A DNA stretch of 36,519 bases from a virus, in IMG/VR virus record IMGVR_UViG_3300036781_000839, positions 1-36,519 of that record, one strand, 5' to 3'. Below the pieces are notes generated by a model. That model was not told where the DNA came from. It ran no database searches and saw only the letters and a list, made by a program, of their open reading frames with translations. Numbering within the stretch: the stretch's first letter is position 1; each line of letters begins with the position of its first letter. Below are positions 5,785 through 28,069 of the stretch, piece after piece. A program made the position numbers and the translations under genes.

Positions 5785-6135
5785 TTAGATCACGCGTACC
5801 CAGTGATTGAAGGTCTGTTGCTCGCCGCCCGCTTCGGTCACGTCGACATCGAGCTGCAACCATCCGGTGGACGGCGAAGACACCGAGACGTCGATCGCGC
5901 TGGCTCGTCCATCCGACAGAAGGCCCTGTAGAGCGTCCAACGCGTATTCCCGCGCCAGGATGCGGACGCGCGGGACATCCTTCTCACGCTGCAGCTCGTG
6001 CAGGCGGCTGCCAATGGTGGGGACTGCCCACCAGCTCCCGAGGGGGATAACGAGACGCAGATACACGGCGTTGGCCAGCGTCGTGATGCGCTGTCCGCTT
6101 AGGTCGCCTGTTCTGGGATCAATGCCCGTATCCAT
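5785..6135 (-). CDS. Mu gp46-like baseplate wedge protein
   Basis: 116 residues of the gp46 family, related in role to the P2 gpW/T4 gp25 lysozyme-like wedge fold. It starts MDTGIDPRTGDLSG, and GSWWAVPTIGSRLHEL (about 36-51) is the family hallmark. The ATG at 6135 is taken because residues before it on the alternative GTG start (6168) do not look conserved. There is no Shine-Dalgarno sequence before this ATG, unlike most neighbours. The start lies exactly 34 nt downstream of a 17-bp dyad also found before gpI, so this gene may head its own late transcript. Confidence 0.88.
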   Translation of the reverse strand: MDTGIDPRTGDLSGQRITTLANAVYLRLVIPLGSWWAVPTIGSRLHELQREKDVPRVRILAREYALDALQGLLSDGRASAIDVSVSSPSTGWLQLDVDVTEAGGEQQTFNHWVRVI

Positions 6136-6169
6136 GGCGGCATGTTGCGTCGCGCACGCGCGGGGCACA

Positions 6170-6186
6170 TATTCAAGCGCTTGTTA
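6170..6186 (-). promoter_or_regulatory. Putative late operator/promoter, copy A (before gp46)
   Basis: On the minus strand it reads TAACAAGCGCTTGAATA, with the perfect core palindrome CAAGCGCTTG. It matches two other intergenic copies (17794-17810 and 26490-26506) at 15 of 17 positions, the differences being in the two central S positions. It occupies the 60-base gap between gp45 and gp46, in a block where genes otherwise touch or overlap. Mu has its PP late promoter in this part of the genome, though a little further upstream. Binding by the Mor/C-family protein is an inference. Confidence 0.6.
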
Positions 6187-6195
6187 GTAACGCCA

Positions 6196-6771
6196 TCACT
6201 CTTTCTGATTCGGTGGCGCAGTCGAACTGCCGCTGACCGGGTGAGTGTGACCATCGTAGATCTGGCGATCATCGGCCATGGCACGGATGCCATCACTGAC
6301 GTCGCCATCGGCGTGCGCGTCATTCTCGACGTTCAGATCCTGGCTCATCTCCACGAGCGGCGTCTCGAACCGGACCTTGGTGCCGGCTTTCACAAGCAGG
6401 GTTTCTGTAACGACTTCGATGATCCGACCGCGCTGCATGTGCACGTGGTCTCCCTCGTCGGTGTAGATCGCGACTTCGCCTGGCTGCAGCTGGATGCGGT
6501 AACGGCCGTCGATGCTGGCGATGATCACGCTATGCCCACTGTCGCCGCCAACGGGAAGCAGGATCACCTCGGAGCCGGCGAGGGGCGCGCTAGACAGTCC
6601 GTAGTGCTGCATGAGTTCAGCCGCGACGGCTTCACCAGCCAAGCCTTCGACCTGGGCAGTCGGTAACACGGCGGTGGCGTCCAGGCGACTGAGCTTGCCC
6701 CGAAACGCCATGCGCACACGTTGACCGGCTCGCTCCGCGGTTTGCCGCATGACTTGGGTTAGGCGCTTCAC
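6196..6771 (-). CDS. Mu gp45-like baseplate spike
   Basis: 191 residues, matching Mu gp45, the trimeric membrane-piercing spike at the tail tip. The N-terminal part is an OB-fold-like domain. From about residue 100 come repeated short hydrophobic strands expected for an intertwined beta-helix (VKAGTKVRFETPLVEMSQDL). The C-terminus carries HTHPV (175-179), the HxH motif that binds a metal ion at the apex in gp45/P2 gpV-type spikes. The GTG start overlaps the gpP stop by four bases (GTGA). A regulatory dyad follows its stop codon. Confidence 0.93.
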   Translation of the reverse strand: MKRLTQVMRQTAERAGQRVRMAFRGKLSRLDATAVLPTAQVEGLAGEAVAAELMQHYGLSSAPLAGSEVILLPVGGDSGHSVIIASIDGRYRIQLQPGEVAIYTDEGDHVHMQRGRIIEVVTETLLVKAGTKVRFETPLVEMSQDLNVENDAHADGDVSDGIRAMADDRQIYDGHTHPVSGSSTAPPNQKE

Positions 6772-7868
6772 AGGCCGAAGTACTCCGTGGGTTTCTTCTG
6801 CTTCTTTTGCTTGTTCTGGTGGGCGTTAACTATCCACGTTTTATCTTCGCGAAAGCGCAGTTCGGTGGTCGCTCCCTCTCTACGCGTCAAGCGTAGCGTG
6901 CGTGCCATGAGGAAATAGGTGCCGTTGATACCGTGCGGTTCGCTGATCAGGTTGACGCGCTGGCCAGGCGTCCAGACCGCCCCACCACTGGCGCGCCAAC
7001 CCTTAACCTTTACTCGTGCCTCAAATGCATCGAGCTTGCTATCCGAGAGCAGCTTGTCGACCCGGTCCCTGGCGAGGTCGCTGGTATCACAGCCGCTGTC
7101 GATGACCACGCGGGGCCGGAAGATGCCGCGAGCGGTCAGTGCGCTGTCGCTGACCTTAGCCGCGAGCGTGGTGCGATCCTCGCCCCAACCGCTGCCCTGA
7201 TACGCGCCATGCTGGCCCAACACCGTGATCTGACTGTAACGGTCAGCGATTGATCGCCGCACGCTCATATCCTCAATGTTGTTGTCGTCACTGTCGCCCT
7301 GGCGCATGACCAGGTCGCCCACTGTGGCTGCGGCGTAATCAGGACCGCCGACGACCAGCGTGCCATCGGGATCGACCCACGGCCAGAGGCCGTTGGCCTC
7401 GGCTGTAAGCAGGAGCGCTTCCCATGCTGTCTGCCCTGGGCTGACCTGCACCTGTTTGCGTAGCTTGGCGATGTCGCTGTCCAGCCGGACCTTGCTGATG
7501 CCCATGGGCTTCACGACCTGGTCGATGATCTGCTGCAAGGTGGCTTCGCGCATCGCGACAAACGGGCTTGAGCAATCCACCAAGGTTCCGGCTTTGTCGC
7601 GGCCGGTGATGCGCACGGCGTGGCCACGCCGGCCTACCTGGTGTTCAACCTCATCCAGCGTGCCGGTCAATACGGCATCGCCGTCCAGATCCAGGGTGCA
7701 CGGCGCCCCCTCGACGACTGTCGCCGGCAAAGTTATGCCGCTACGCGTGAAAAGCTCGAGCTCGAACGCATCGGCGGGCGTCAGCAGGTCGCTATCGACC
7801 GACCAGCCCGTCCAGGTGTCGTTGACGACGCCGCCCACCGACAACCGAATGTTCGGACTAGTTGGCAT
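6768..7868 (-). CDS. P: Baseplate hub protein gpP (Mu gp44)
   Basis: 366 residues, as expected for Mu gpP, the hub that joins tail tube and spike and belongs to the T4 gp27-like fold. Seen: the beta-rich N-terminus around LSVGGVVNDTWTGW, the conserved WEALLLTAEANGLWPWVDPDG region, and a basic, Lys-rich C-terminus (NKQKKQKKP). The ATG lies inside the end of the gpN gene (11-base overlap), as usual in this block. Confidence 0.93.
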   Translation of the reverse strand: MPTSPNIRLSVGGVVNDTWTGWSVDSDLLTPADAFELELFTRSGITLPATVVEGAPCTLDLDGDAVLTGTLDEVEHQVGRRGHAVRITGRDKAGTLVDCSSPFVAMREATLQQIIDQVVKPMGISKVRLDSDIAKLRKQVQVSPGQTAWEALLLTAEANGLWPWVDPDGTLVVGGPDYAAATVGDLVMRQGDSDDNNIEDMSVRRSIADRYSQITVLGQHGAYQGSGWGEDRTTLAAKVSDSALTARGIFRPRVVIDSGCDTSDLARDRVDKLLSDSKLDAFEARVKVKGWRASGGAVWTPGQRVNLISEPHGINGTYFLMARTLRLTRREGATTELRFREDKTWIVNAHQNKQKKQKKPTEYFGL

Positions 7869-9300
7869 ATGCGTTCAGTACCTGACCTGCGGCGACGCTG
7901 TAGGGCGTCACGAGCTGCGGGTTAAGTCGAAGCAGCTCGTTCGCTCGTGTGTTGTCGCCGTACCAAAGGAAAGCCAGACGGCGTAGGCACTGCGTCGAGG
8001 GCGCTACACGCTGCACCATCGGAGGCTTGATATTGATTACCGCATTGGCCGACACCTGGACAACCTGGGCAAGTTGGCGGAGCGGCTCGATGACCGCCAG
8101 CGCTGCCTCCACGCCGAACAACTCACGGTGCATGATGATCGCCGATTGCAGAAGCGAGCGCGCCTGGGCGGTCAAGGCATCGACGTCACTGGGCGTCAGG
8201 CTGGGACTATCAAGCTCTTCGTCAAACACGCTGCAGACCGCGTCAGCGAGAACCATGGCTTGCTCTGTAATCAGGTAGGCGACCAAGGTGAGGCCCACGG
8301 CGTTGACGGCGTCCACAGGGAGACCATCTGGCAACTCGATGGCAGTGCCACCGGCCGCGCCGCCGTTCGCGCCGGCATTGGTATCCGAGGTGCCGGCGTA
8401 CAGCGTTGGCATAACGCCCTGGCGGGAGCACACGAGGGCGACCTGCCACGCGCGGACCGCCATGGCTGGAAGGTTGTCCTGCCCGGGCACGGTCTGCGGC
8501 AGCGCATTGCCCGCCAGCAAGGATGTTGCATCGGTGGGCATAGCAAATTCAATGTCATCACGGGCCTCGGGGAGCACGCGATTCGATCCTTCGCCCACGA
8601 CGGGGTCGAACGTCGGTGCGACACCGTCGGCTAACACGGCAAGGCCACTGAGCGTGCCGAGGATCTGACTGCGCAGCTGCGCGTACTGCAGGGTGATTCC
8701 TGGCTGGCCGATCACGTTCTCCATCAGCCCGGTCCATCCGCCATCCGTCGCGTTACGGACGTTCGACACGATTCCGACCACCTGCGCGAGTACACCGCGC
8801 ACCGCCGAGGCATACGAACGAACCTGACCCAGGACCGCCTTGCCGGAGGCAATCGCAGCGGCAAGGCCGCTGAGCTGCTGCGTACTCGCCACGGCATCGG
8901 CAGTGGTCACGAACGTCCGCTGGAAGAACTGCGGGTCATCGCCCGACTCGATCAGCGTGAGCGCTACCTCAGCCCAGTCCGGCGTCTCCGCGCCGTCCCG
9001 AATCCGGTAACGCTCTACATGCACAGTGACGCTGCCGTACACCGGGTGCACAAAGGCGGCATCATCTGCCGAATCCAGCGCAACGATCAGTTGCTGCAGC
9101 GTCGTCTCGTAGTTATCGCCCCAACACACCACCTGGACCTCAAAGCGGCGCGCATCGCGGCCGAGATCCTCGATGGATTCGCCGTCACGATAAGGCACGC
9201 CATGCTGGGCAAGGGAGCGACTGACGTCCAGCTCCGTAGCGATCACGTCGATAGCGACCGAGCGGAAGCTTGCCGGCAGGAGGTTGTCTTTCCAGCTCAT
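7858..9300 (-). CDS. N: gpN, DNA circularisation N-terminal domain protein (Mu gp43)
   Basis: 480 residues. The N-terminal 130 residues, from SWKDNLLPASFR through FVHPVYGSVTVHVERYRI to TLIESGDDPQFF, match the domain called DNA circularisation N-terminus that defines Mu gpN homologues. The rest is mostly helical. It is a baseplate or tail-tip component between the tape measure and gpP. The ATG overlaps the tape-measure stop (ATGA). Confidence 0.92.
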   Translation of the reverse strand: MSWKDNLLPASFRSVAIDVIATELDVSRSLAQHGVPYRDGESIEDLGRDARRFEVQVVCWGDNYETTLQQLIVALDSADDAAFVHPVYGSVTVHVERYRIRDGAETPDWAEVALTLIESGDDPQFFQRTFVTTADAVASTQQLSGLAAAIASGKAVLGQVRSYASAVRGVLAQVVGIVSNVRNATDGGWTGLMENVIGQPGITLQYAQLRSQILGTLSGLAVLADGVAPTFDPVVGEGSNRVLPEARDDIEFAMPTDATSLLAGNALPQTVPGQDNLPAMAVRAWQVALVCSRQGVMPTLYAGTSDTNAGANGGAAGGTAIELPDGLPVDAVNAVGLTLVAYLITEQAMVLADAVCSVFDEELDSPSLTPSDVDALTAQARSLLQSAIIMHRELFGVEAALAVIEPLRQLAQVVQVSANAVINIKPPMVQRVAPSTQCLRRLAFLWYGDNTRANELLRLNPQLVTPYSVAAGQVLNAYAN

Positions 9301-11687
9301 CCGCGCCTCGCGTCACGCACCTGTCGATCAACGACTTTGGCGTGTAGTTCGTCTGTGTCCGATGTGACTTGGATCTGGAGTGGCTTGCCCAAGAGTGGTT
9401 CGAGCAGGCGCGCCGCGTCGTTGAATAGACGAGCAGCCTCCTGCATCTGGCCCCCGGTCGACGCGTTGGCATCGCCAGTAGCGGCCGGGTCCAGCCGTGA
9501 GGCGGTCGCTTCTGCCCAGGTGCCGACGGAATCAGACAGGCGCGGCGAGAGCCAGCGCGCGGCCGGCGAACGCGCCACATCGCCGATCAACCCTGCCGCT
9601 TGTGCGGTCTGGGCGGCGTCCGCCTGCTCCGCAGGGATCTGGCGCGACACCCAGGCCTCATAGTCTTCCACGCTCGTTTTGCCAGGAGCGGCGTTGGCAC
9701 TGTCGACCCAGCGCCCATAGGGCATCTCGCTCGTTTCGATCTGATTGCGCCGGTCGAGCTGGGCATCGTTGATGCCCAGGCGCTTCTTATCACGCTCCCG
9801 CTGGTCGGCCACCAAGGCCGCGTCCTGGGCGTCGGCGATAGGCTTCAGGGCATCGTTCACGGCCGCGACACCGCTGCCCAGGGCGAAGGCCGGCAGCAGG
9901 TCCATCATAGCGAAGCCCCGAGCGCCGGCAGCAACCCGTGCGACGCCCGTGGCGGCGCCTGCGGCACGACCACCGGTCGCCGCCTCAGCCGCGATTTCTG
10001 CGGCGCTGGATGCCGCACTACCCATACCCGAAGGCGCGCCGCTCCAGTTGGTGACAAACACCGGTGTCACGCCAGCACTTTCCTGCAGCGCGCGACCAAC
10101 AACGATGTTTTTCACCGTGTCGGCACTGCCACCTAGTAGGCCGGTCAATTTGCCCAAGGCTTTGTTGCCGCCCCACTTGGCCAGGCGACTGCCGTAGAAG
10201 CCGCCCACACCCAGGGCCGCTGCGCCGCCCAGGAGTTGGCCACCGCTTAGACCTTTGTCATCGAGCAGGTACTGCGCGGCGCTGGCCAGCGCCTGGTTCA
10301 CGGGTATGGCGGCCTTGTCCAGGGCCTCTCCTACCGTGGCTTTCACGCGCCCGGCAGTAGCCGTGGCGCTCTTACGGTTCTCATCGAGCTGGGCCGGGTC
10401 GAAGTCCGTCACGGTGCTAATCTGTTTACCGTAGTCGCGCGCCTGCTCGATGCGCCCTGGCTGCAGGAAGGCGCGGAAGTTGCGCTGCGTATCGAGGTCG
10501 GCCTCACCGATCACAGCCTGCAAGAAGTCGGAACGTCGACTATCCGTCGTAAGTTTCTGATACCGCTTGCGCAGATCTTCCATGACGGTGAAGGGATCGC
10601 GCGTAGCGCCCTTCTTATCGAAGAAGTTCACCCCCGTCGTCTTGGTGACCTGCGCCCGGTACTTGCCATTGGTGAACATGCGCAGCCCCGACTCAGCCAA
10701 CGTCGCCAGACGCTCGGGTTGCGATTCGATGTTCGATAGCGCTTCGATGTAGCCGATCGTCTGCGGGTAGTTCAAGCCCGCCTGCTGGGCGGCGCCGCCG
10801 ACACGGGGAAAGATATTCGGCAGATCTGGCAGCTCGGCGCGACCAAGGCGACCGCCGACCAAGCCCTGGGCGAGCAAGCGATTACTTACGCCGCTCTTCG
10901 CCAGGTCCTCATTGAAGATGGCGGCAGCCGTGACCTGATAGTCCGCCAACTGCCCTTGATCGGCGCCACTAATCGTAGACGCAATATCAGCGGCGTTGGA
11001 CGCAGGCTTGGCCTGCTTATAGTTCAGACCCGCCGCCACCAGCTGACCCATGCCACGATCAATGGCATCCGGATCGTTACCGTTGGCGCGAGCCATCGCC
11101 CAGCGCGTGCGCCGCCAATCATCTACATCCGCAGCGCTCATGTCGGCGGTCTGACGCAGCTGGATGTTGGTGCGGTCCAGCCGCGCGCTCGAGCGCAGCG
11201 TCTGCACCGCGCCTGCCCCGATACCCAGTGTGGCCAGTCGACCACCGACGCCACCTAACACCTTATGCAAGGCATCGAACTCGCGGCGTGCCGCGCTGGC
11301 CATGGTGCGCAGTGCGCTGGTTGACCGCAGCGCAAGCATGCGCAGTCGGTCCATGCCACGGCCCGCACGCTCCGCCTCGGACGTGGACCGGCGTAACTCG
11401 CGCGCGTCGTCCTGCAAACCGCGCTTGATGGCTTCGGTGGCCCGCTGCCCCTGCGTGCCCACGCGGTCCATCGTGCCACCGAATTTCTTGACCTCGGCGC
11501 CCGCTTCGGAGGTGGACTGCTTGACCTCCTGCCACTGACCGTTTTGCCAGCGCAGAGCCTGCTTGGCCTTGTTGCCCGTGGCGGTGGAAGTCTTGCCCAG
11601 CTTGTCGACGGCGGCCGTTTGAGCATCGACCGGACCGCTTCCCTCGCTGCGCGCCCGTACGGTGAGATTGACGCGCATGTCGCTCAT
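9297..11687 (-). CDS. Tail tape measure protein
   Basis: 796 residues, the longest gene here and in the tape-measure position after the gp41 chaperones. It is highly helical, with an N-terminal coiled-coil part rich in Ala, Arg and Glu (about 10-150). A central phage-type tail region follows with NDPDAIDRGMGQLVAAGL and LPNIFPRVGGAAQQAGLNYPQ, and then Gly/Ala-rich hydrophobic stretches (about 470-600) that could insert into a membrane during ejection. Length sets tail length. The ATG overlaps the stop of the gp41 frameshift product (ATGA). Confidence 0.93.
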   Translation of the reverse strand: MSDMRVNLTVRARSEGSGPVDAQTAAVDKLGKTSTATGNKAKQALRWQNGQWQEVKQSTSEAGAEVKKFGGTMDRVGTQGQRATEAIKRGLQDDARELRRSTSEAERAGRGMDRLRMLALRSTSALRTMASAARREFDALHKVLGGVGGRLATLGIGAGAVQTLRSSARLDRTNIQLRQTADMSAADVDDWRRTRWAMARANGNDPDAIDRGMGQLVAAGLNYKQAKPASNAADIASTISGADQGQLADYQVTAAAIFNEDLAKSGVSNRLLAQGLVGGRLGRAELPDLPNIFPRVGGAAQQAGLNYPQTIGYIEALSNIESQPERLATLAESGLRMFTNGKYRAQVTKTTGVNFFDKKGATRDPFTVMEDLRKRYQKLTTDSRRSDFLQAVIGEADLDTQRNFRAFLQPGRIEQARDYGKQISTVTDFDPAQLDENRKSATATAGRVKATVGEALDKAAIPVNQALASAAQYLLDDKGLSGGQLLGGAAALGVGGFYGSRLAKWGGNKALGKLTGLLGGSADTVKNIVVGRALQESAGVTPVFVTNWSGAPSGMGSAASSAAEIAAEAATGGRAAGAATGVARVAAGARGFAMMDLLPAFALGSGVAAVNDALKPIADAQDAALVADQRERDKKRLGINDAQLDRRNQIETSEMPYGRWVDSANAAPGKTSVEDYEAWVSRQIPAEQADAAQTAQAAGLIGDVARSPAARWLSPRLSDSVGTWAEATASRLDPAATGDANASTGGQMQEAARLFNDAARLLEPLLGKPLQIQVTSDTDELHAKVVDRQVRDARRG

Positions 11688-12192
11688 CGGGCTTCTTTGT
11701 TCCTCAGACTCTTGTAGGTCTTGGTGGCGGGCTTGCCGCGACGGCTGATGAAGTCCAGGCGGACCTCTATCTCGGGCTTGGTCATCTGTCGTACTTCGTC
11801 AATGCGATAGCCCTGCTTAACCAAAACGTGTTCGATCAGCCACCAGTTTCGGAGTTCGCTTCTTCGGGCGGCTCGCTCAGCGCTTTTCCCAACGCTTCAT
11901 CGGCCACCTCCAACAGGCCCAGGTCGATCTCGCTCAGCTCATTACTCAGCAGCTCGATGGTCAGGTTTTCAGCAGGGATATCCCCGAGTTGGAGAAGCTG
12001 CTGGCGATAGCATTCCAACGCCTGGAGACGGATCGGGCCACTGGGGTATGCCTTCTGGGCGTTGATCAGATCGCCCGCCATCGGTACGCGCAGCGTGAAC
12101 TTCTTGTGCCTGGTGCCGGCGAACAGCACGCCGATCTTCAGCTCGCGCGAAATGGTCAGGCCTTCCCAACTCTTGGTGTTTGACGTGGACAT
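11684..12192 (-). CDS. gp41-gp41' tail assembly chaperone fusion made by -1 frameshift
   Basis: Read together, gp41 and a second open frame downstream give one longer product. After a -1 slip at the G GGA AAA heptamer (11884-11890) translation stays open without a stop. It passes the gp41 stop and continues WWLIEHVLVKQGYRIDEV through EIEVRLDFISRRGKP to a stop at 11684-11686, which overlaps the tape-measure ATG. This is the lambda G/GT arrangement, known in many tailed phages including Mu: both products chaperone the tape measure. The extension has no good start of its own, which supports frameshifting. Efficiency is unknown. Confidence 0.82.
11836..12192 (-). CDS. Mu gp41-like tail assembly chaperone, unshifted product
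   Basis: 118 residues from the ATG at 12192 (MSTSNTKSWEGLTISREL), matching phage tail assembly proteins of the gpE/gp41 class. A mixed beta/alpha N-terminal part contains FTLRVPMAGDLINAQ, and an acidic helical C-terminus ends in SEPPEEANSETGG. It works before or with the tape measure during tail polymerisation and is not expected in virions. The upstream possibility at 12225 adds 11 residues but lacks family resemblance. The slippery site falls 18 codons before its stop. Confidence 0.88.
   Translation of the reverse strand: MSTSNTKSWEGLTISRELKIGVLFAGTRHKKFTLRVPMAGDLINAQKAYPSGPIRLQALECYRQQLLQLGDIPAENLTIELLSNELSEIDLGLLEVADEALGKALSEPPEEANSETGG
11884..11890 (-). other. Programmed -1 frameshift slippery site
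   Basis: The minus strand reads GGGAAAA, and the gp41 frame divides it as G GGA AAA (codons TTG GGA AAA GCG). This is the canonical X XXY YYZ pattern, one base different from lambda's GGGAAAG. The -1 frame entered here is open to 11684. Confidence 0.83.
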
Positions 12193-12358
12193 AAACGGAC
12201 CTTCAATGATTGTTTGGGATGGCAATAGCCAGCTCGTCTGGCCGGGTCCCTGAGTTGCTTTTTGTCTTGGCCGTCACGCTCATACCGGCTCAGTGAGATA
12301 CAGGGTCTGATTACCTACGGACTTTGTGTCGTGCGCGGCACGCCGTATCGCCGAAAAG
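12193..12358 (-). other. 166-base intergenic stretch before gp41
   Basis: No gene fits between the lipoprotein stop and the gp41 start. It contains short GC-rich inverted repeats (GGCGTGCC and CGTGCCGCGCACG around 12329-12346) but no T-run and no copy of the late dyad. It may have come in with the lipoprotein gene, since gpM and gp41 are usually close together in Mu-like genomes. Confidence 0.4.
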
Positions 12359-12601
12359 TTAGTGCACGTCCACGATGTAACAGGTGCTATTGCGCTCGGG
12401 CGTATAGATCGTGTTTTCGATCTGCCAGCTGGCAGTGCCGTCGCGAGGGGCGATGAAGGTGGATAGCGGGCTCTGGTAAAGCATCGTGCCACCACGGGTG
12501 CAAACCAGTTGCTGCTGCGCTTCCGGGAGATCGCAGCTGGCCAGCAGAACGCTGGCCAGCACGATCGCGAGTACCGGGAGGCGGACCAGGGGCGGCCGCA
12601 T
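12359..12601 (-). CDS. Small phage lipoprotein inserted between tail tube and gp41
   Basis: 80 residues. A short basic N-terminus and a hydrophobic core (LPVLAIVLASVLL) lead to the lipobox LASC, giving lipidation at Cys23 and a mature part of 58 residues with two more Cys (LVCTR, STCYI) that could form a disulfide. The residue after the lipidated Cys is Asp, the inner-membrane retention signal in E. coli. It starts at an ATG overlapping the gpM stop (TGATG). It is not a usual member of this block; small phage lipoproteins of this kind often act in superinfection exclusion, but function here is unproven. Confidence 0.75.
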   Translation of the reverse strand: MRPPLVRLPVLAIVLASVLLASCDLPEAQQQLVCTRGGTMLYQSPLSTFIAPRDGTASWQIENTIYTPERNSTCYIVDVH

Positions 12602-12972
12602 CACTCGGTGTAGTAGTTGAGGGCGGCCAGCTGCAGCTCGCGGGTGGCTTCGTTGTCCAGGTTGTACGTGCTGCCCTTCGTGACCAGGTGCACACCCGTC
12701 CAGGTCTCGCGAACGCCGCCGCCGTCCTGGGGATACGCGGTGACCTTGCCGTCGATCAGCGTGCTCCAGTTCGGCTCGCCGGTCTTCGGGATAGCCACGT
12801 TCACGGTGAGCGCATAATCCGCGACACCCTTGGACGTGCCCAGCGGACGACCGCTGGAGTTCATCGTCTTCACGACCTTACGGTTCGTGTTCTCGGTCGT
12901 GCTGAGGCTGACCACTTCGTACTCGGTGCCGTCGATCTCAAGCACGATCAGCCCAACATAGGTATCTGCCAT
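12601..12972 (-). CDS. M: Tail tube protein gpM
   Basis: 123 residues with the simple beta-barrel profile of Mu gpM/phage tail tube proteins. It opens ADTYVGLIVLEIDGTEY, and the centre has ADYALTVNVAIPKTGEPNW, typical of the family. It polymerises into the inner tube through which DNA passes. The ATG has GGAGAA 6-11 nt upstream and follows the sheath stop by 12 bases, so sheath and tube are co-transcribed. Confidence 0.92.
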   Translation of the reverse strand: MADTYVGLIVLEIDGTEYEVVSLSTTENTNRKVVKTMNSSGRPLGTSKGVADYALTVNVAIPKTGEPNWSTLIDGKVTAYPQDGGGVRETWTGVHLVTKGSTYNLDNEATRELQLAALNYYTE

Positions 12973-12984
12973 GAATTTCTCCGT

Positions 12985-14085
12985 TTAGAGGATGAGGTTG
13001 ATCACGCCTGCGAAGACATGCAGGCCATTGACCACGTCGGCAGGGATCGACGCGACGAGCCAGCTGGCATCGGTCGCGCTCTTTTCGACGATAAGCCCGT
13101 CGGCGTTGGCGTCGACGTTCTCCACGATTTCGAGCGTCTCGCACTTTTTCAGTACGTCGAGCAGTTCGCCACGGACGGATGCAGCAATCCGGGCCGTGTT
13201 CTTTGCGCGCGGAAAGCGCAGGGCGACGCGATCGCGGCAGGCCTGGCGCACGTAGTACAGGGTCCGCATGGTGGTGATATCCAGCAGCGACACATCAGCC
13301 GTGCCGGTAGCGGACTTGGTATAGGTGCTGATGGCACGGACGATCTGCACGACTTCACCCGGACCGACCTCAAGCGGCGTTACCCCGTTGAGCAGGGCCG
13401 TTTCCTGTTCGTTCCGTGACAATCGATCGGCAATGGCCGGCACCGGGACGCCGCTCAGCGCAAGGGTGTTCAGCGGACGTGCCGGGTCACTCTCACTGGC
13501 GATCACGGCGGCGTACGCGGCAGCCAGCTCGGCTGGCGTGTAGGTGGTCCCGGGCAGCAGCGCAAGCGTGACCGGTCCACTGTTGAGAGCGGTGGCTAGC
13601 GTGGTAGCCGAGGTCAACGTGCCCACCACGGCGGCGACGCCCAGAAGAGGCTTCTGGTTGATCGAGTTGGTCACCTCTTCGATATGTGTGCGCATCGCCG
13701 TAAGGGCGGCGCTGCTCTGCCATGCGGATACCACCTGGGTGTAATCACCTGTCGCCGTGGCATCGAGTGCCGCCGTGATATCGGGTTCGGCGTCGTCGTC
13801 AACCGAGATCCCTACGAGGGACAGCTGCAGGTAACGGTTGGCCTTGATGGCGGCGGCCACCATCGCCTGGGCAACGGTGCTTCCCGTCAGTGCCAGCGCG
13901 CTCTGTGCGTCGTACACCACGGTGGCCACCAAGGGAGCCATCGTGCCGGCGGCGAGCAGGGGCACGACCAGGAGAAGCGACTGTGCGTTGGCCGGCAGCG
14001 TGTTGACCGCCAACGATGTGTTGAACTCGATGTACGTACCCGGTTTACGGGTGCTTGCGGGAATGGTGTTCAGGGTGATGGTCAT
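12985..14085 (-). CDS. L: Contractile tail sheath protein gpL
   Basis: 366 residues, of the Mu gpL type, which is shorter than T4 sheath. The N-terminus STRKPGTYIEFNTSLAV is the conserved strand that swaps between subunits. DISVDD-like and PLNTLALSGVPVPA regions are typical, and the C-terminus NGLHVFAGVINLIL is the usual beta ending. It contracts to drive the tube through the host envelope. The ATG overlaps the preceding DUF2635 stop (ATGA). Confidence 0.95.
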   Translation of the reverse strand: MTITLNTIPASTRKPGTYIEFNTSLAVNTLPANAQSLLLVVPLLAAGTMAPLVATVVYDAQSALALTGSTVAQAMVAAAIKANRYLQLSLVGISVDDDAEPDITAALDATATGDYTQVVSAWQSSAALTAMRTHIEEVTNSINQKPLLGVAAVVGTLTSATTLATALNSGPVTLALLPGTTYTPAELAAAYAAVIASESDPARPLNTLALSGVPVPAIADRLSRNEQETALLNGVTPLEVGPGEVVQIVRAISTYTKSATGTADVSLLDITTMRTLYYVRQACRDRVALRFPRAKNTARIAASVRGELLDVLKKCETLEIVENVDANADGLIVEKSATDASWLVASIPADVVNGLHVFAGVINLIL

Positions 14086-14312
14086 TTGGCGGCGCTCCCA
14101 GACTTCGAGTTGGCGGTGGTATCAGGCTCACTGGCAGGCGTGAGAGCAACGGGCTTGCTGGTCGCCTTACCCGGGGCGAGCACTAGCTCTCGTGTCTCAA
14201 GCCGTCGGCGGTAGTAAATGGAATCAGGCACGTCGACCGGCTCGCTGCCGATAAACGCGCGCTGCTTTTCGAGGGGCACCTTCAGGCCCTCATTAGCGAT
14301 GACTCGCGGCAT
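14082..14312 (-). CDS. DUF2635 protein (Mu gp38-like)
   Basis: 76 residues. The opening (MPRVIANEGLKVPLE) and the central PVDVPDSIYYRRRL stretch match the DUF2635/gp38 family, which always lies just before the sheath gene in Mu-like phages. The last 30 residues are a low-complexity Ala/Ser/Thr/Pro tail. The role is not known; the conserved place suggests tail assembly. Its ATG overlaps the gp37 stop (TAATG). Confidence 0.87.
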   Translation of the reverse strand: MPRVIANEGLKVPLEKQRAFIGSEPVDVPDSIYYRRRLETRELVLAPGKATSKPVALTPASEPDTTANSKSGSAAK

Positions 14313-14890
14313 TACGTGTTCTCCAGGGGGACGTGATCCGAGGCGTCGATGAAGTCGTCGCCGGGCTTGAGGTAGTAGTTGAGGTCGATGCCCAGGAGGG
14401 GCTCGGCGGCATCCTCGGGCACGGTCCAGTCCGCCTTGATGGCGAAGCTCTGGCCCAGCACGCTCAGGTAATCGCGCTCGGTCTTGCCGTTGACCAGGTT
14501 GTTGTATGTCGTGGGTACGAGGCCATCGGCGGACAGGCCCGCCGCCTCGTTGCTCGGGTGAAAGTCGGTGAGCAGGCGCATGCAGCTATCCCAGAGCGCG
14601 TAGCTACCCATCTGGCCTGCAGTGCCCATGCGGGTTTCTGCCTGGCCCCGCGCCTGTCGCACAAAGATGACCAGGCGGACCACGCCATCGAAGTTGAAGC
14701 GGCGGTTGCTTCGCCTGGTGAACTTGCCGCTTGGGACCAGCACAAGCACCGCCATCCCGGCAGCGGCGACCTTGGCCAGCAAGTCGCCGTCGGAAAGCTC
14801 GCCGGCATAGCCCGCCAACTCGATGCGCGACGACGTTTCTTTCAATGTCTGGAGCCGACCCAGTACGGCGGCTTCGATAAGGTCAAGCAT
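14312..14890 (-). CDS. Mu gp37-like protein (DUF1834 family)
   Basis: 192 residues matching the gp37/DUF1834 family found between gp36 and the sheath, probably a head-tail completion or tail-terminator type protein. Visible: an N-terminal helix with MLDLIEAAVLGRLQTL, a beta stretch RRFNFDGVVRLVIFVRQARG, and the C-terminal LGIDLNYYLKPGDD. The ATG at 14890 overlaps the gp36 stop (TGATG) and has GGAGG 6 nt upstream, so it is preferred over the TTG one codon earlier. Confidence 0.88.
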   Translation of the reverse strand: MLDLIEAAVLGRLQTLKETSSRIELAGYAGELSDGDLLAKVAAAGMAVLVLVPSGKFTRRSNRRFNFDGVVRLVIFVRQARGQAETRMGTAGQMGSYALWDSCMRLLTDFHPSNEAAGLSADGLVPTTYNNLVNGKTERDYLSVLGQSFAIKADWTVPEDAAEPLLGIDLNYYLKPGDDFIDASDHVPLENT

Positions 14891-15375
14891 CAAAACCTCC
14901 GCAGGGTGTGGCGGGAGAAAACGCGGGGGTTGCTGATCACGGTGGGCGCGCCGCCCGTGTCACCCTCGGATACGTCATTGGCGGCGTCTTCGTCCATCAG
15001 CGCCTTGAGTCGCTTGATCACGTCCTGATAGCGCAGCCGCACGGTGCTGTCGGCATTGCCAGCAGCGTCGTACAGGTGATAGCGCGCCAGTTCCAGCGCG
15101 TCGTCCTGCAGCCAGATCGGCGCGTCGGCCGTCGGCGCACGGAAGCGCAGGTAATAGGCAAGCTCGGTGGTGGCGCGGCCGCTGACGGTGTCGATACGGC
15201 TCAGCGCGCTCTGGGCCGATAGCTTCGCGGCATCGTCCCACTGGGAGAGGTCATCGCCATTCGCAGCCATCGACATCTGGTCGGGGGTCAGCGGGTCCAG
15301 CCATTTGGGCACGGCGATGGCGGCGATCTCTTCGGCGCCAAAACGTGTCACAAGCTGAGCGGCGGTGATGTTCAT
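14890..15375 (-). CDS. DUF1320 protein (Mu gp36-like head-completion protein)
   Basis: 161 residues of the gp36/DUF1320 family, which resembles helical head-tail connector adaptors. It starts MNITAAQLVTRFGAEEIAAI and has DDALELARYHLYD and VRLRYQDVIKRLKALMD, both typical. AAGGAA stands 4-9 nt before the ATG. The gene follows the major capsid gene after a 78-base gap holding a perfect hairpin. Confidence 0.9.
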   Translation of the reverse strand: MNITAAQLVTRFGAEEIAAIAVPKWLDPLTPDQMSMAANGDDLSQWDDAAKLSAQSALSRIDTVSGRATTELAYYLRFRAPTADAPIWLQDDALELARYHLYDAAGNADSTVRLRYQDVIKRLKALMDEDAANDVSEGDTGGAPTVISNPRVFSRHTLRRF

Positions 15376-15389
15376 GGGTTCCTTCAATG

Positions 15390-15415
15390 CACCGCCCAGG
15401 CTCTCCTGGGCGGTG
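15390..15415 (-). terminator. Strong hairpin after the major capsid gene
   Basis: A perfect 11-bp inverted repeat with a 4-base loop lies between gpT and gp36: arms CACCGCCCAGG (15390-15400) and CCTGGGCGGTG (15405-15415). No T-run follows on either strand, so it is not a textbook terminator. It may be a leaky or Rho-assisted stop, or a stem that protects the abundant capsid mRNA. A second small stem with 5-bp arms lies at 15424-15437. Confidence 0.55.
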
Positions 15416-15453
15416 TGGCTACGCGTGCTTACGCAAGCAAGCGTCGGGGGGCG

Positions 15454-16350
15454 TTACAGCCAGGGACTGACGAGGATCGTCAGGCGGCCCGCAAGGGGGT
15501 TGGACTCGCCGCCGTTGACCAGCAGGCTCTTCAGGAGGGCGGCGGCCGCAAACTCCATGGTGGACGGCACGACCAGGACGCTGGGATTGATGCCCAGCTT
15601 GCGGTCGTTGTCGCCGACACGACCGGTCATCGCCGTAATGGCCGCTTCGAGGTTCGCTGCATTCAACGGCTTGTTGGACGAGTAGGCCTGCTGCCAGAAG
15701 CCGTAACCGGCATTGCCGCGTGCGTCGACGCCATAGACGTATTCAGCGCGGCTGAAGACGTTTTCATCCGTCTCCGCCACCTGGGCGACGAAATTGGGCT
15801 TCTTGCGGTCCTGGAAGATCAGCGGCTTCAGTGCGCGGCGCGTATCCAGCACGTACCAGGCGGGACCGCCGTCGGCGACGTCATCGACGTTGCTCTGGTT
15901 GACCGGCTTGCCTGCCGCATTGAGCACCGGATGGTTGGTGGCAAAGAACGGCTTGCCGTCGTAGCACTTATCGGTGCGGCCAGCTGCCAGCAAGCTGAAC
16001 ACCAGCTCGTCGGGGAACTCGCCCGCGCTCTGGCCCATCTCGGTCATCATCGGGCTGTAGACGCCGTACTGGTCATCTTCGATGGAAGCGCGGGGAACGC
16101 CCACGGTGAGTTCGAACGGCTTGTTCTTGACTGTGTATCCATGGCTCTGGATGCCGTTGACCACGCGATCACCGATCCACTCGCGCATCTTGGGGAACTT
16201 ACCCAGCCAGCCGTATTCCTCGGCGCCGGTCGTGCTGGGCACGACGGTGGCGATCTGGGTGTACTGACTCGGTGCCGTGCCCAGGCCGCCTGCAAAGGCG
16301 GCTTTAAAGGCGATAAACAGGGTCTTGAGGTTGCCTGCGTTAACGATCAT
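15454..16350 (-). CDS. T: Major capsid protein gpT
   Basis: 298 residues, matching Mu gpT, which has an HK97-type fold. It begins MIVNAGNLKTLFIAFKAAF. Family hallmarks are EYGWLGKFPKMREWIGDR, FELTVGVPRASIEDDQYGVY, and FFATNHPVLN in the centre. The ATG at 16350 starts the conserved part; upstream codons in frame overlap the preceding gene and are not family-like. It forms the icosahedral shell around the gpI-processed scaffold. Confidence 0.96.
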   Translation of the reverse strand: MIVNAGNLKTLFIAFKAAFAGGLGTAPSQYTQIATVVPSTTGAEEYGWLGKFPKMREWIGDRVVNGIQSHGYTVKNKPFELTVGVPRASIEDDQYGVYSPMMTEMGQSAGEFPDELVFSLLAAGRTDKCYDGKPFFATNHPVLNAAGKPVNQSNVDDVADGGPAWYVLDTRRALKPLIFQDRKKPNFVAQVAETDENVFSRAEYVYGVDARGNAGYGFWQQAYSSNKPLNAANLEAAITAMTGRVGDNDRKLGINPSVLVVPSTMEFAAAALLKSLLVNGGESNPLAGRLTILVSPWL

Positions 16351-16364
16351 GGGTGCGAGGCTCC

Positions 16365-16784
16365 TTAAGCCGCTTCGACGGTGATGGGATAGCGGCCGAC
16401 ATCGACCCACACGCCTTCGTCAGTGATATCGACGACGACGCCGGCGATGGCAGTGCCCGTACGAGCCACGGTGCTGTCGTCTTCGACATAGGCGACGGCG
16501 CCGATATCCAGACGTGTGCACGCACTGGTGGCCGAGTTGTCGAACGCAAAGCAGTCGCGGCGAAGGCTGGCCTGCAAATCGCCGTCGGCGCCTTTGGAGT
16601 TGTCGACGTCACATTCGTTGACACCGACGACGTTCCGGCCGGCCTTGGTCGCGGGCACGGCGAAGCCCGTGGCATTGAGTGCCACCAGGCCACCGGTGAA
16701 AAGGAGCGTGGCGGCGGCGACAACGTGTCCGACCTGGTCGCCGTTGCGACGCGGCGTCAGGCGGCCCTGGGTGAGCTGGGTCAT
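16365..16784 (-). CDS. Capsid decoration/head protein between gpI and gpT
   Basis: 139 residues, beta-rich with alternating Val/Ala/Gly strands and several Asp. Position between protease/scaffold and major capsid protein, size and composition fit a decoration or head-stabilising protein of Mu-like phages. AAGGAC precedes the ATG by 8-13 nt. Three Cys (NECDV, RRDCF, SACTR) are seen. The exact family cannot be named with certainty from the sequence alone. Confidence 0.78.
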   Translation of the reverse strand: MTQLTQGRLTPRRNGDQVGHVVAAATLLFTGGLVALNATGFAVPATKAGRNVVGVNECDVDNSKGADGDLQASLRRDCFAFDNSATSACTRLDIGAVAYVEDDSTVARTGTAIAGVVVDITDEGVWVDVGRYPITVEAA

Positions 16785-16796
16785 GGGTATCTGTCC

Positions 16797-17759
16797 TTAC
16801 TTGGTGGCTTTGGTAGCCAGGAAGGCGGCGGGATCAAGGCCGGTGGCCTGGCACACGGCCAGCTCTTCGGCGTTGAGGGCGGTTTCGGTGGCGCCGCCGG
16901 GCTTGTCCAGATCCTTCTGGTCGGGCGCAATGACCGCCGCAACGTTGACGTAATCCTTGAAGCGAGCCAGGCCGGCCGAGTCCGAACAGCTGGCACGGTG
17001 GTAGGCCTCGGTGGCGGGCGTGATCTTGCCGGCCGCCAGGGCACCGCTGATCGCGGTATCCACGGCGGCGGTGTGTTCGGCGGCATCCCGGGTAGCCAGC
17101 GCCTGTTCGGCGTTGACAGCACGGGCCTGCAACGTGTCGTAGTCCGACCGAGGCACGAAGCGTTCCAGGCTGGGGTTCTCGCTGTTGGCCGCTTGCGCGG
17201 TCTTCAGCTGGGTGATGGCGGCAATAGCCGCCTCATCGGTTGCGTCGGCGGTGAGGCCGAGCGCACCCGCAATCGCTGCGGATAGGGCCACAGGTGTTTC
17301 CTCGCTGTTGAGCGCCGTCAGGCGCAGGTTGGGAGTGTTGAGAATTGCCGCACTGACCAGCCGCGCGATGCGCTTGGTGGTCGGGTCGTAGTCGAAGACG
17401 GGGCTGAGGTACTTGTACTCGCGGTTGAGGACCTGCTGACCACCGCGCGGGGTCCAATCCACCTGACCCCAGAGCGCTCCGTCGCGGGACTCCAACTGTT
17501 TGATCCATGCGGCGGCCGGCGCGTCGCCGCCCGTGGGTGCCTGGAGCTGGGTCGCATGGTTCCAGTCGATGACGACGTCGAGGCCACGCTCGCCAAAGGT
17601 GGCAAGCACCTGGTCGGCAGCGAGCTGGTCGAAGACCCAGCTGCGGCCGTCAAGGCCGGTGACGTTGGGTCCGGCCGGAATCAGCTCCACCCACTCGGGA
17701 GCGGCGCCATCGACGGCGGCGAGTTCGACATTAAGAGCGAGGTGAGTTTTGCGTGGCAT
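16797..17759 (-). CDS. I: gpI-like prohead protease/scaffold
   Basis: 320 residues. The first 190 match Mu gpI: WVELIPAGPNVTGLDGR, VVIDWNHAT with a likely catalytic His68, and YKYLSPVF with a likely catalytic Ser119. The last 130 are helical, Ala-rich and acidic, as expected for the scaffold part. In Mu the scaffold is also made from an internal in-frame start (gene Z); no Met occurs in the C-terminal half here, so a separate scaffold would need GTG or TTG. There is no Shine-Dalgarno before the ATG, and a regulatory dyad ends 34 nt upstream. Confidence 0.92.
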   Translation of the reverse strand: MPRKTHLALNVELAAVDGAAPEWVELIPAGPNVTGLDGRSWVFDQLAADQVLATFGERGLDVVIDWNHATQLQAPTGGDAPAAAWIKQLESRDGALWGQVDWTPRGGQQVLNREYKYLSPVFDYDPTTKRIARLVSAAILNTPNLRLTALNSEETPVALSAAIAGALGLTADATDEAAIAAITQLKTAQAANSENPSLERFVPRSDYDTLQARAVNAEQALATRDAAEHTAAVDTAISGALAAGKITPATEAYHRASCSDSAGLARFKDYVNVAAVIAPDQKDLDKPGGATETALNAEELAVCQATGLDPAAFLATKATK

Positions 17760-17993
17760 GGGGCCATGTTCAGCCCCGCGCGCGCAGCCCCGTTATTCAA
17801 GGGCTTGTTATAAAACCGGCATGCCCCTCGGAAGGGCTTTTTGCCAGAAAACGACCTGGCAGCCGGCAGGTGGGATGCCGAGACCGGGCAGGCATCCCCT
17901 CCATGGCATTTAAAACGCATTTTAGAGCCCGGCGCCACCCCCTTCCGGTATCTCTGCCGTCACCCACCCCCTCGCAGGGCGACCACGGGCGTT
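17760..17993. other. G-I spacer at the prophage centre; possible strong gyrase site
   Basis: This 234-base gap between gpG and gpI is the largest spacer inside the structural genes and lies near the middle of the prophage. In Mu the strong gyrase site needed for replicative transposition is in the same G-I interval. The spacer also holds an 8-bp inverted repeat (GGGATGCC/GGCATCCC, 17872-17898), an A/T-rich patch at 17909-17923 and the late dyad. No open frame here looks coding. Gyrase binding is inferred from place only. Confidence 0.45.
17794..17810 (-). promoter_or_regulatory. Putative late operator/promoter, copy B (before gpI)
   Basis: The minus strand reads TAACAAGCCCTTGAATA. It ends exactly 34 nt before the gpI ATG, the same distance as copy A from the gp46 ATG. 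The two 34-base spacers also match at 21 positions, including AACATG at the same place. Mu has its PI promoter upstream of gene I. Activator binding is inferred. Confidence 0.62.
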
Positions 17994-26423: not shown

Positions 26424-26489
26424 AGCGGCTCCCCGTAGGTCACATGACCCCGTGTGCCGTCAGATTCGTCTATCGCGCGTGTGAGCTGA

Positions 26490-26506
26490 TATTCAAGCCC
26501 TTGTTA
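26490..26506 (-). promoter_or_regulatory. Putative late operator/promoter, copy C (before lysis genes)
   Basis: The minus strand reads TAACAAGGGCTTGAATA, sharing 15 of 17 bases with copies A and B. It lies immediately downstream of the terminator that ends the early/middle block and 66 nt before the holin ATG. Mu's Plys late promoter is in the same place. Activation by the Mor/C-family protein encoded 500 bases upstream is an inference. Confidence 0.65.
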
Positions 26507-27020: not shown

Positions 27021-27467
27021 TTAACCCCTCTCTCCGAAGCCAAAGAGATCCGGGCCACTACGGCGGCGGATCTCCCTCTGTGCGGCAAGGATCGTATAAA
27101 TCCGCTGCGGTGTCAGCTTGTACTTGTTGACCAGCTGCTCAATCGGGCACCCCTGGTCGAAGTGCTCCGTGGCGATCTCGATATCGCGCAGTGCGCGTTT
27201 GAGCACCTCGCCCTTGGGCCAGTAAACGATGTGACCACCCAGCTCATCGATTGCGCTCATGACGACCTCGGGAGACAGGTCAGCAGCGCGCTCCGGTCCC
27301 AAATGCTTATTGAGGACCCATTTCACCGCCTTTAAAAGCTTCCCCACATTGCCCTCCCAGTGGTGGGCTTTGAGCTGCTTGAGGCTGTCGATGACCTTGT
27401 CGGCATCGAGCTGGCCGTCGTCACCGAACATGTCGGCGGTATCAATGCTGGTCTTTTCGTCCTTCAT
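27021..27467 (-). CDS. mor: Mor/C-family transcription activator
   Basis: 148 residues. The Mor family core is clear: GGHIVYWPKG (77-86) is the conserved loop and beta strand of the dimer, and the C-terminal helix-turn-helix is CPIEQLVNKYKLTPQRIYTI (107-126). In Mu, Mor activates the middle promoter and its relative C the late promoters; only one family member is visible here. It lies last but one in the early block, directly before the terminator and the first late dyad, so it is the best candidate regulator of those sites. Start ATG 27467 overlaps the previous stop. Confidence 0.92.
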   Translation of the reverse strand: MKDEKTSIDTADMFGDDGQLDADKVIDSLKQLKAHHWEGNVGKLLKAVKWVLNKHLGPERAADLSPEVVMSAIDELGGHIVYWPKGEVLKRALRDIEIATEHFDQGCPIEQLVNKYKLTPQRIYTILAAQREIRRRSGPDLFGFGERG

Positions 27468-28069
27468 GGGGTCCTCGCGTATTTGGCCCGTGCAGCGGAC
27501 TGGCGCTCGTCTCGTTCTTCCTTGCTGATGGCACCGTATTCGTACTGCTTCTCCAGCCACGCCAGATCCCGCTTGAGCGGATCTTCGGGTGGCTGCGGCG
27601 GGCTGATGCCCGTGCCGGTGCCCACGCGGTGATGGCCGGCACGACGTTCCACCTCGCCCTTGCGTTCAGCGTGGGCGGCTGGCTGATCGGCCAGCGCGTA
27701 GACGACCTTCCGCAGGTAGTTGTGGTTGCCCAAGGGCAGATTGAGGTCGGCGCGATTGTTGAGCATCTGTTCCATGCCTGCGGCCCACATCGCCGGAGTG
27801 GCAGCGCGTCGCATGCCGCTGCGTTCATCGGCGCACACCTGGGCAGCATTCACCAGTTCCTCCAGCTCGGCCAGGACCGCAGCGGCCTTTGTCAGGCGCA
27901 GCGTGGTCTTGGCCGGCTTGAACAGCCGCAGGTAGGCAAGCGCCGCTCGGGCCACAATCGGCTCCATCTCAGCGACCACGAGTGCCAGGCGCTTTGCGTC
28001 CCCCTCAACCAGCCCTGCCTCGATGGGAAAGGCCGTACTGCAGGCGGGACATGTCACGTTGATGCCCAT
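27464..28069 (-). CDS. Conserved phage protein with N-terminal CPAC motif
   Basis: 201 residues. It starts MGINVTCPACSTAFPIEAGL, a half zinc-ribbon, then a helical part with RAALAYLRLFKPAKTTLRL and later NLPLGNHNYLRKVVYALAD, which resembles conserved hypothetical proteins in Mu-like phages of Burkholderia and Pseudomonas. A charged C-terminus (DLAWLEKQYEYGAISKEER) ends it. The family function is not known to me. It lies between GemA-region genes and Mor and overlaps both neighbours. Confidence 0.8.
   Translation of the reverse strand: MGINVTCPACSTAFPIEAGLVEGDAKRLALVVAEMEPIVARAALAYLRLFKPAKTTLRLTKAAAVLAELEELVNAAQVCADERSGMRRAATPAMWAAGMEQMLNNRADLNLPLGNHNYLRKVVYALADQPAAHAERKGEVERRAGHHRVGTGTGISPPQPPEDPLKRDLAWLEKQYEYGAISKEERDERQSAARAKYARTP

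Follow-up and report, generated by a model that had tools for sequence, protein, structure and literature searches.

The leaderless mRNAs of proteobacteria are usually regarded as rare, weak and regulatory. Leaderless genes are rare in the hosts of the Mu-like phages considered here, and translation of leaderless messages is considered inefficient in E. coli, so that it would be surprising for structural genes. The cI mRNA of phage lambda is a leaderless mRNA of a proteobacterial phage, and to our knowledge the known leaderless mRNAs of such phages encode regulators made at low level. Messages of the cI type begin with a 5'-terminal AUG and lack a Shine-Dalgarno sequence. In Deinococcus-Thermus, the -10-adjacent ORFs carry a -10 motif a few bases before the reading frame and give a leaderless transcript (PMC12340547).

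The middle and late promoters of phage Mu (Pm, Plys, PI, PP and Pmom) have a dyad centred at about -43 to -43.5 that replaces the -35 element, a weak -10 element and an activator of the Mor family; at Pm, the centre of the Mor-bound dyad is at -43.5 (PMC4390567). Published oligonucleotides (PMC4461284) contain the S1-mapped start sites of Plys, PI and PP, and we placed them on the Mu genome to measure the spacing between dyad, -10 element and start site. At these late promoters the end of the dyad is followed by 23 nt, the -10 hexamer (TAGACT, TATCCT or CAAACT), about 6 nt and then +1. The same mapping gives the Mu I mRNA a leader of about 24 nt with an AGGA, and the lys mRNA one of 21-24 nt that likewise contains a Shine-Dalgarno sequence.

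Here we analysed a 36,519-nt stretch of DNA (the window) from a Mu-like phage whose late genes are read on the minus strand. From the sequence, we consider it likely, with a probability of roughly 0.85, that gp46 and gpI are served by Mor/C-type activated sigma-70 late promoters that start at the AUG and give leaderless messages. The phage resembles Mu in its promoters and in that the late operons lys and I begin at equivalent genes. It differs in that the I and lys leaders of Mu are about 21-25 nt long and contain a Shine-Dalgarno sequence, whereas the predicted start site in the window is the ATG itself, and in that PP of Mu lies within gene N, not in front of gp46. The leaderless arrangement is not universal, since Mu I is leadered. 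The predicted gp46 and gpI messages share the 5'-terminal AUG and the missing Shine-Dalgarno sequence with those of the cI type, but they come from late virion genes with an activator-dependent promoter, conserved over the whole phage group. They share with Deinococcus-Thermus a -10 element that closely precedes the ORF; there this is a genome-wide habit of the host (PMC12340547), whereas here it is phage-specific and an activator dyad takes the -35 role. A literature search turned up no transcript data on this phage or on any relative, and no earlier report of leaderless Mu-like late mRNAs, although most subscription papers lay outside its coverage.

Three probable activator dyads on the late strand

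A scan of the window for the perfect dyad TAACAAGNNCTTGAATA gave three matches without mismatch, on the late strand, compared with a mean of 0.08 matches in shuffled windows even with three mismatches allowed. A fourth, weak match at 15660 sits within coding sequence and was rejected. One dyad (TAACAAGCGCTTGAATA, 6170..6186, minus strand) lies upstream of gp46 (5785..6135, minus strand), which was assigned by family search to the baseplate wedge proteins of phrog_180 and has a start conserved from residue 1. Another (TAACAAGCCCTTGAATA, 17794..17810, minus strand) lies upstream of gpI (16797..17759, minus strand), assigned by family search to the head maturation proteases of phrog_328 and predicted to be leaderless. 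Both are centred at -43.5 from the A of the ATG, and in both cases a -10-like hexamer occupies -12 to -7: CAACAT at gp46 (6142..6147, minus strand; the same register is found in relatives) and GAACAT at gpI (17766..17771, minus strand). At gp46 the predicted initiator is a pyrimidine-purine CA step (6135..6136, minus strand), with C at -1 and the A of the ATG at +1.

The distance from dyad to -10 at gp46 and gpI matches that of the Mu late promoters. The original prediction had inferred leaderless messages on the proviso that the activator centre sat near -43; counted from the A of the ATG, the dyad centre falls between positions -44 and -43, and with the Mu geometry this places +1 on that A. 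The underlying observation on the two starts is real. The dyad ends 34 nt from the ATG at both gp46 (6135) and gpI (17759), exactly as had been claimed, and the two spacers do share 21 of their 34 bases and have AACATG at equal offset, 21 or more matches being reached by only 0.015% of shuffled spacer pairs. The absence of a Shine-Dalgarno sequence was also borne out at gp46 (dG 0.0); gpI has just a GGGG about 14 nt before its ATG, which does not count as one because it is too distant and belongs to an inverted repeat. Neighbouring late genes had been said to carry Shine-Dalgarno sequences in most cases, which is true of most, not all.

The third dyad (TAACAAGGGCTTGAATA, 26490..26506, minus strand) was not part of the earlier finding. 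It is a perfect match and marks a lys-type late promoter, with a -10-like hexamer, GAATCT (26462..26467, minus strand), inferred from the equal offset, and a lysis-operon start site predicted from the same geometry at 26455. The first gene downstream encodes a holin (PF13272; 26079..26423, minus strand). Its ATG lies 66 nt after the dyad, compared with 34 nt at gp46 and gpI, and is preceded by the Shine-Dalgarno sequence GGGGAG (26429..26434, minus strand), inside the predicted 32-nt leader. The spacer of this promoter matches those of gp46 and gpI at only 11 of 34 positions each. One type of activator site would, on this geometry, serve leaderless and leadered genes within one genome.

The dyad-binding activator is likely to be the Mor/C-family product of 27021..27560 (minus strand; PF08765, E 7e-14 in a family search), an identity that is inferred without binding data. 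The searched ORFs of the window yielded no second Mor/C-family gene, while Mu has both Mor and C, and a single activator may be enough for the middle and the late promoters. The features of a Mor/C-activated, Mu-type late promoter, namely a dyad centred at about -43.5, a -10 that is not accompanied by a -35 element, and a Mor/C-family gene encoded by the phage, are present. In the proposed mechanism, a Mor-family dimer, by inference required for transcription, would bind the dyad centred at -43.5, which would take over the role of a -35 element. The weak -10 hexamer at -12 to -7 would be used by sigma-70 polymerase. RNA synthesis would begin on the A of the gp46 or gpI ATG, the exact nucleotide being inferred to within a leader of 0-2 nt, and the 5'-terminal AUG would presumably be translated without a Shine-Dalgarno sequence by 70S ribosomes. 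The same activator would drive the lysis operon from an identical promoter, with the start codon 32 nt further on and provided with a Shine-Dalgarno sequence.

gp46 and gpI starts in related phages

Using a gp46 alignment as the query, we collected 73 prokaryotic and 80 viral loci, the hosts including Pseudomonas, Pasteurellaceae, Neisseriaceae, Enterobacterales, Burkholderiales and Desulfovibrio. Removal of near-duplicates left 81 gp46 starts, 74 of them promoter-type and seven promoterless with gp45 abutting gp46. An exact-dyad scan across viral contigs gave at least 118 stretches, many of which are expected by chance at such a pattern length, and was left out. The gp47 starts were the control for the -1 base and Shine-Dalgarno energy only; they are unfit as a register control because A....T is partly raised there by conserved coding sequence, and shuffled sequences were used for the register instead. 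As the representatives have common ancestry, p-values overstate their independence.

The gp46 ATG is a real start: the protein alignment begins at residue 1, and the second codon is usually GAC or GAT, varying in its third position, so the ATG is translated and has not been replaced by a later start. It is ATG in 97% of cases, with two GTG. An A....T pattern stood in the -10 register (-13, -12 or -11) at 72 of the 74 promoter-type starts, compared with 14% in shuffles. The base at -1 was a pyrimidine in 74/74, compared with 22/70 gp47 starts (Fisher 2e-21), and in two of the seven promoterless gp46 starts. The first pyrimidine-purine step 6-10 nt past the -10 coincided with the A of the ATG in 68/72, versus 47% with shuffled spacers. 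Where the -10 was shifted 2 nt upstream, -2 was also a pyrimidine (15/15, versus 11/39 otherwise; Fisher 9e-7), so that the first such step is kept at the ATG. This pattern at -1 and -2 is the trace to be expected if the A of the ATG had been under selection as the start site. Median Shine-Dalgarno energies were -0.6 for promoter-type gp46, equal to shuffled sequence, -6.6 for promoterless gp46 and -5.0 for gp47, and most of the seven promoterless relatives had a Shine-Dalgarno sequence.

Dyad sequences vary widely among phage groups, and the geometry is constant. In phages of the CTTAAACC type (CTTAA-type), the distance from motif to ATG is 52-54 nt at gp46 and 51-52 nt at gpI; many of their genomes have exactly three sites, and at the lysis site the leader is about 30 nt long. 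A leader of 1-2 nt is not excluded in many Pseudomonas phages, whose -10 is located 8 nt from the ATG. Upstream of gp46 in Pasteurellaceae prophages (loci L187, L175, L189 and L164), the dyad resembles an intrinsic terminator, with a GC hairpin and a T-run, and may close the preceding operon as well as open the following one. A Mizugakiibacter prophage has a gp46 without a promoter but with an AGGAG Shine-Dalgarno sequence (L133), together with a leaderless-type gpI promoter (L317).

No match was found in either collection when a single gpI sequence was used to search for relatives, and gpI starts were taken from the genomes of the gp46 relatives, giving 48 that were non-redundant. Thirty of the 48 were leaderless-type, with a -10 in the -12 or -11 register, no adequate Shine-Dalgarno sequence and a pyrimidine at -1 in every case; all 30 start with ATG. 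The others, chiefly from Pasteurellaceae and Neisseria, mostly have a Shine-Dalgarno sequence, and several have a -10-like hexamer further upstream. In one Neisseriaceae genome a near-identical block, CCATGCCCCGCACACTGCGGGGC-ATG, is common to the gp46 (L142) and gpI (L329) starts, which suggests, from sequence likeness, exchange between the two promoters.

The sequence properties expected of a leaderless mRNA are present, with a -10 that places +1 at the start codon, no Shine-Dalgarno sequence and an AUG start. The -10 hexamers are weak, CAACAT for example, so register and conservation are the grounds for calling promoters. Several independent signs in the sequence point strongly to a transcript that begins at the ATG, although no 5' end has been mapped. 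The leaderless reading of the original prediction is thereby supported by the comparison of relatives that it had called for: about 150 relatives keep the gp46 distance constant and lack a Shine-Dalgarno sequence there. The outcome that would have refuted it, variable distance with normal ribosome-binding sites, is absent for gp46 and occurs only in promoterless cases or at gpI of other host groups.

An inverted repeat around the -10 hexamer

At gpI of the window a GC-rich inverted repeat, GGGGC-N8-GCCCC (17760..17777, minus strand), surrounds the -10, its 3' arm ending at -1. Arms of at least 5 flank the -10 in 70% of leaderless-type gpI starts, versus 5.7% of shuffles; in these relatives the 3' arm stops no more than a few bases short of the ATG, in many cases at -1, and the -10 hexamer lies in the loop. 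The arms differ among phages yet stay complementary (GCCGCC/GGCGGC, GCCCCG/CGGGGC, GCTGCC/GGCAGC and CGAGGCA/TGCCTCG). A subset of gp46 starts has this layout too. At gp46, arms of at least 6 occur in 18%, versus 0.7% of shuffled sequences, an enrichment that is only partly specific because gp47 starts are also enriched (7% versus 1.1%).

Both arms lie outside the predicted leaderless RNA, and the hairpin is predicted only in read-through RNA, directly before the AUG. For gpI of the window, the predicted folding energy is -16.3 kcal/mol in the read-through context versus -1.4 at the leaderless 5' end. This suggests, by inference, that the hairpin silences read-through RNA. Since read-through RNA lacks a Shine-Dalgarno sequence and folds a hairpin missing from the leaderless RNA, translation of gp46 and gpI might be confined to RNA that originates at the activator-dependent promoter of each gene, a translation lock that we put forward tentatively. 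Alternatively, the repeat may act at the DNA level in the opening of the -10, a role considered because Mu C acts on isomerisation at lys, I and P (PMC4461284).

Competing explanations and biological meaning

Transcription might instead begin well upstream, for example at a TATAAC-like sequence that precedes the gpI dyad, and produce a leader without a Shine-Dalgarno sequence on which ribosomes rely on S1-dependent binding, scanning or coupling. The sequence TTTTATAAC does stand in front of the gpI dyad, TAAC flanks all three dyads, and some coupled neighbour genes likewise lack a Shine-Dalgarno sequence. However, the corresponding sequences at the other two sites are TACTAA and TGCTAA, neither of them a -10, and Mu start sites fall downstream of the dyad. 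An upstream start would also not explain why -1 is strictly a pyrimidine, why the -10 keeps its register and why a Shine-Dalgarno sequence appears when the promoter is missing, and we consider it improbable. It is very improbable that the promoter is merely a recently duplicated cassette whose distance to the ATG was inherited and has no function. The 21/34 spacer matches would fit such a duplication, as would the near-identical 23-nt block of -10 and hairpin at L142 and L329, but the third spacer shares only 11/34 positions with each of the others and most relatives keep the distance despite unlike sequences at gp46 and gpI. The duplicated promoter-leader cassette that the original prediction held in reserve is thus not needed.

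That the main role of the dyads is to terminate or attenuate transcription between late operons seems least likely of all. The Pasteurellaceae dyads, in which a GC hairpin is followed by T-runs (L187, L175 and L189, for example), speak for it. The dyads of the window and of the Pseudomonas type have no strong hairpin or T-run, yet their spacing to the -10 is equal, and termination looks like a double use of the dyad in one host group.

Under the preferred reading, that of activated late promoters starting at the AUG, a virion assembly gene is apparently leaderless across a broad group of Mu-like phages with gamma- and beta-proteobacterial and Desulfovibrio hosts, which is unusual in proteobacteria for heavily used structural genes of viruses. 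With a sister gene under the same activator that has a normal leader, these phages would offer a natural paired system. Such a system could be used to ask when leaderless translation is efficient, whether it is favoured in phage-infected cells and whether it ties translation to promoter use.
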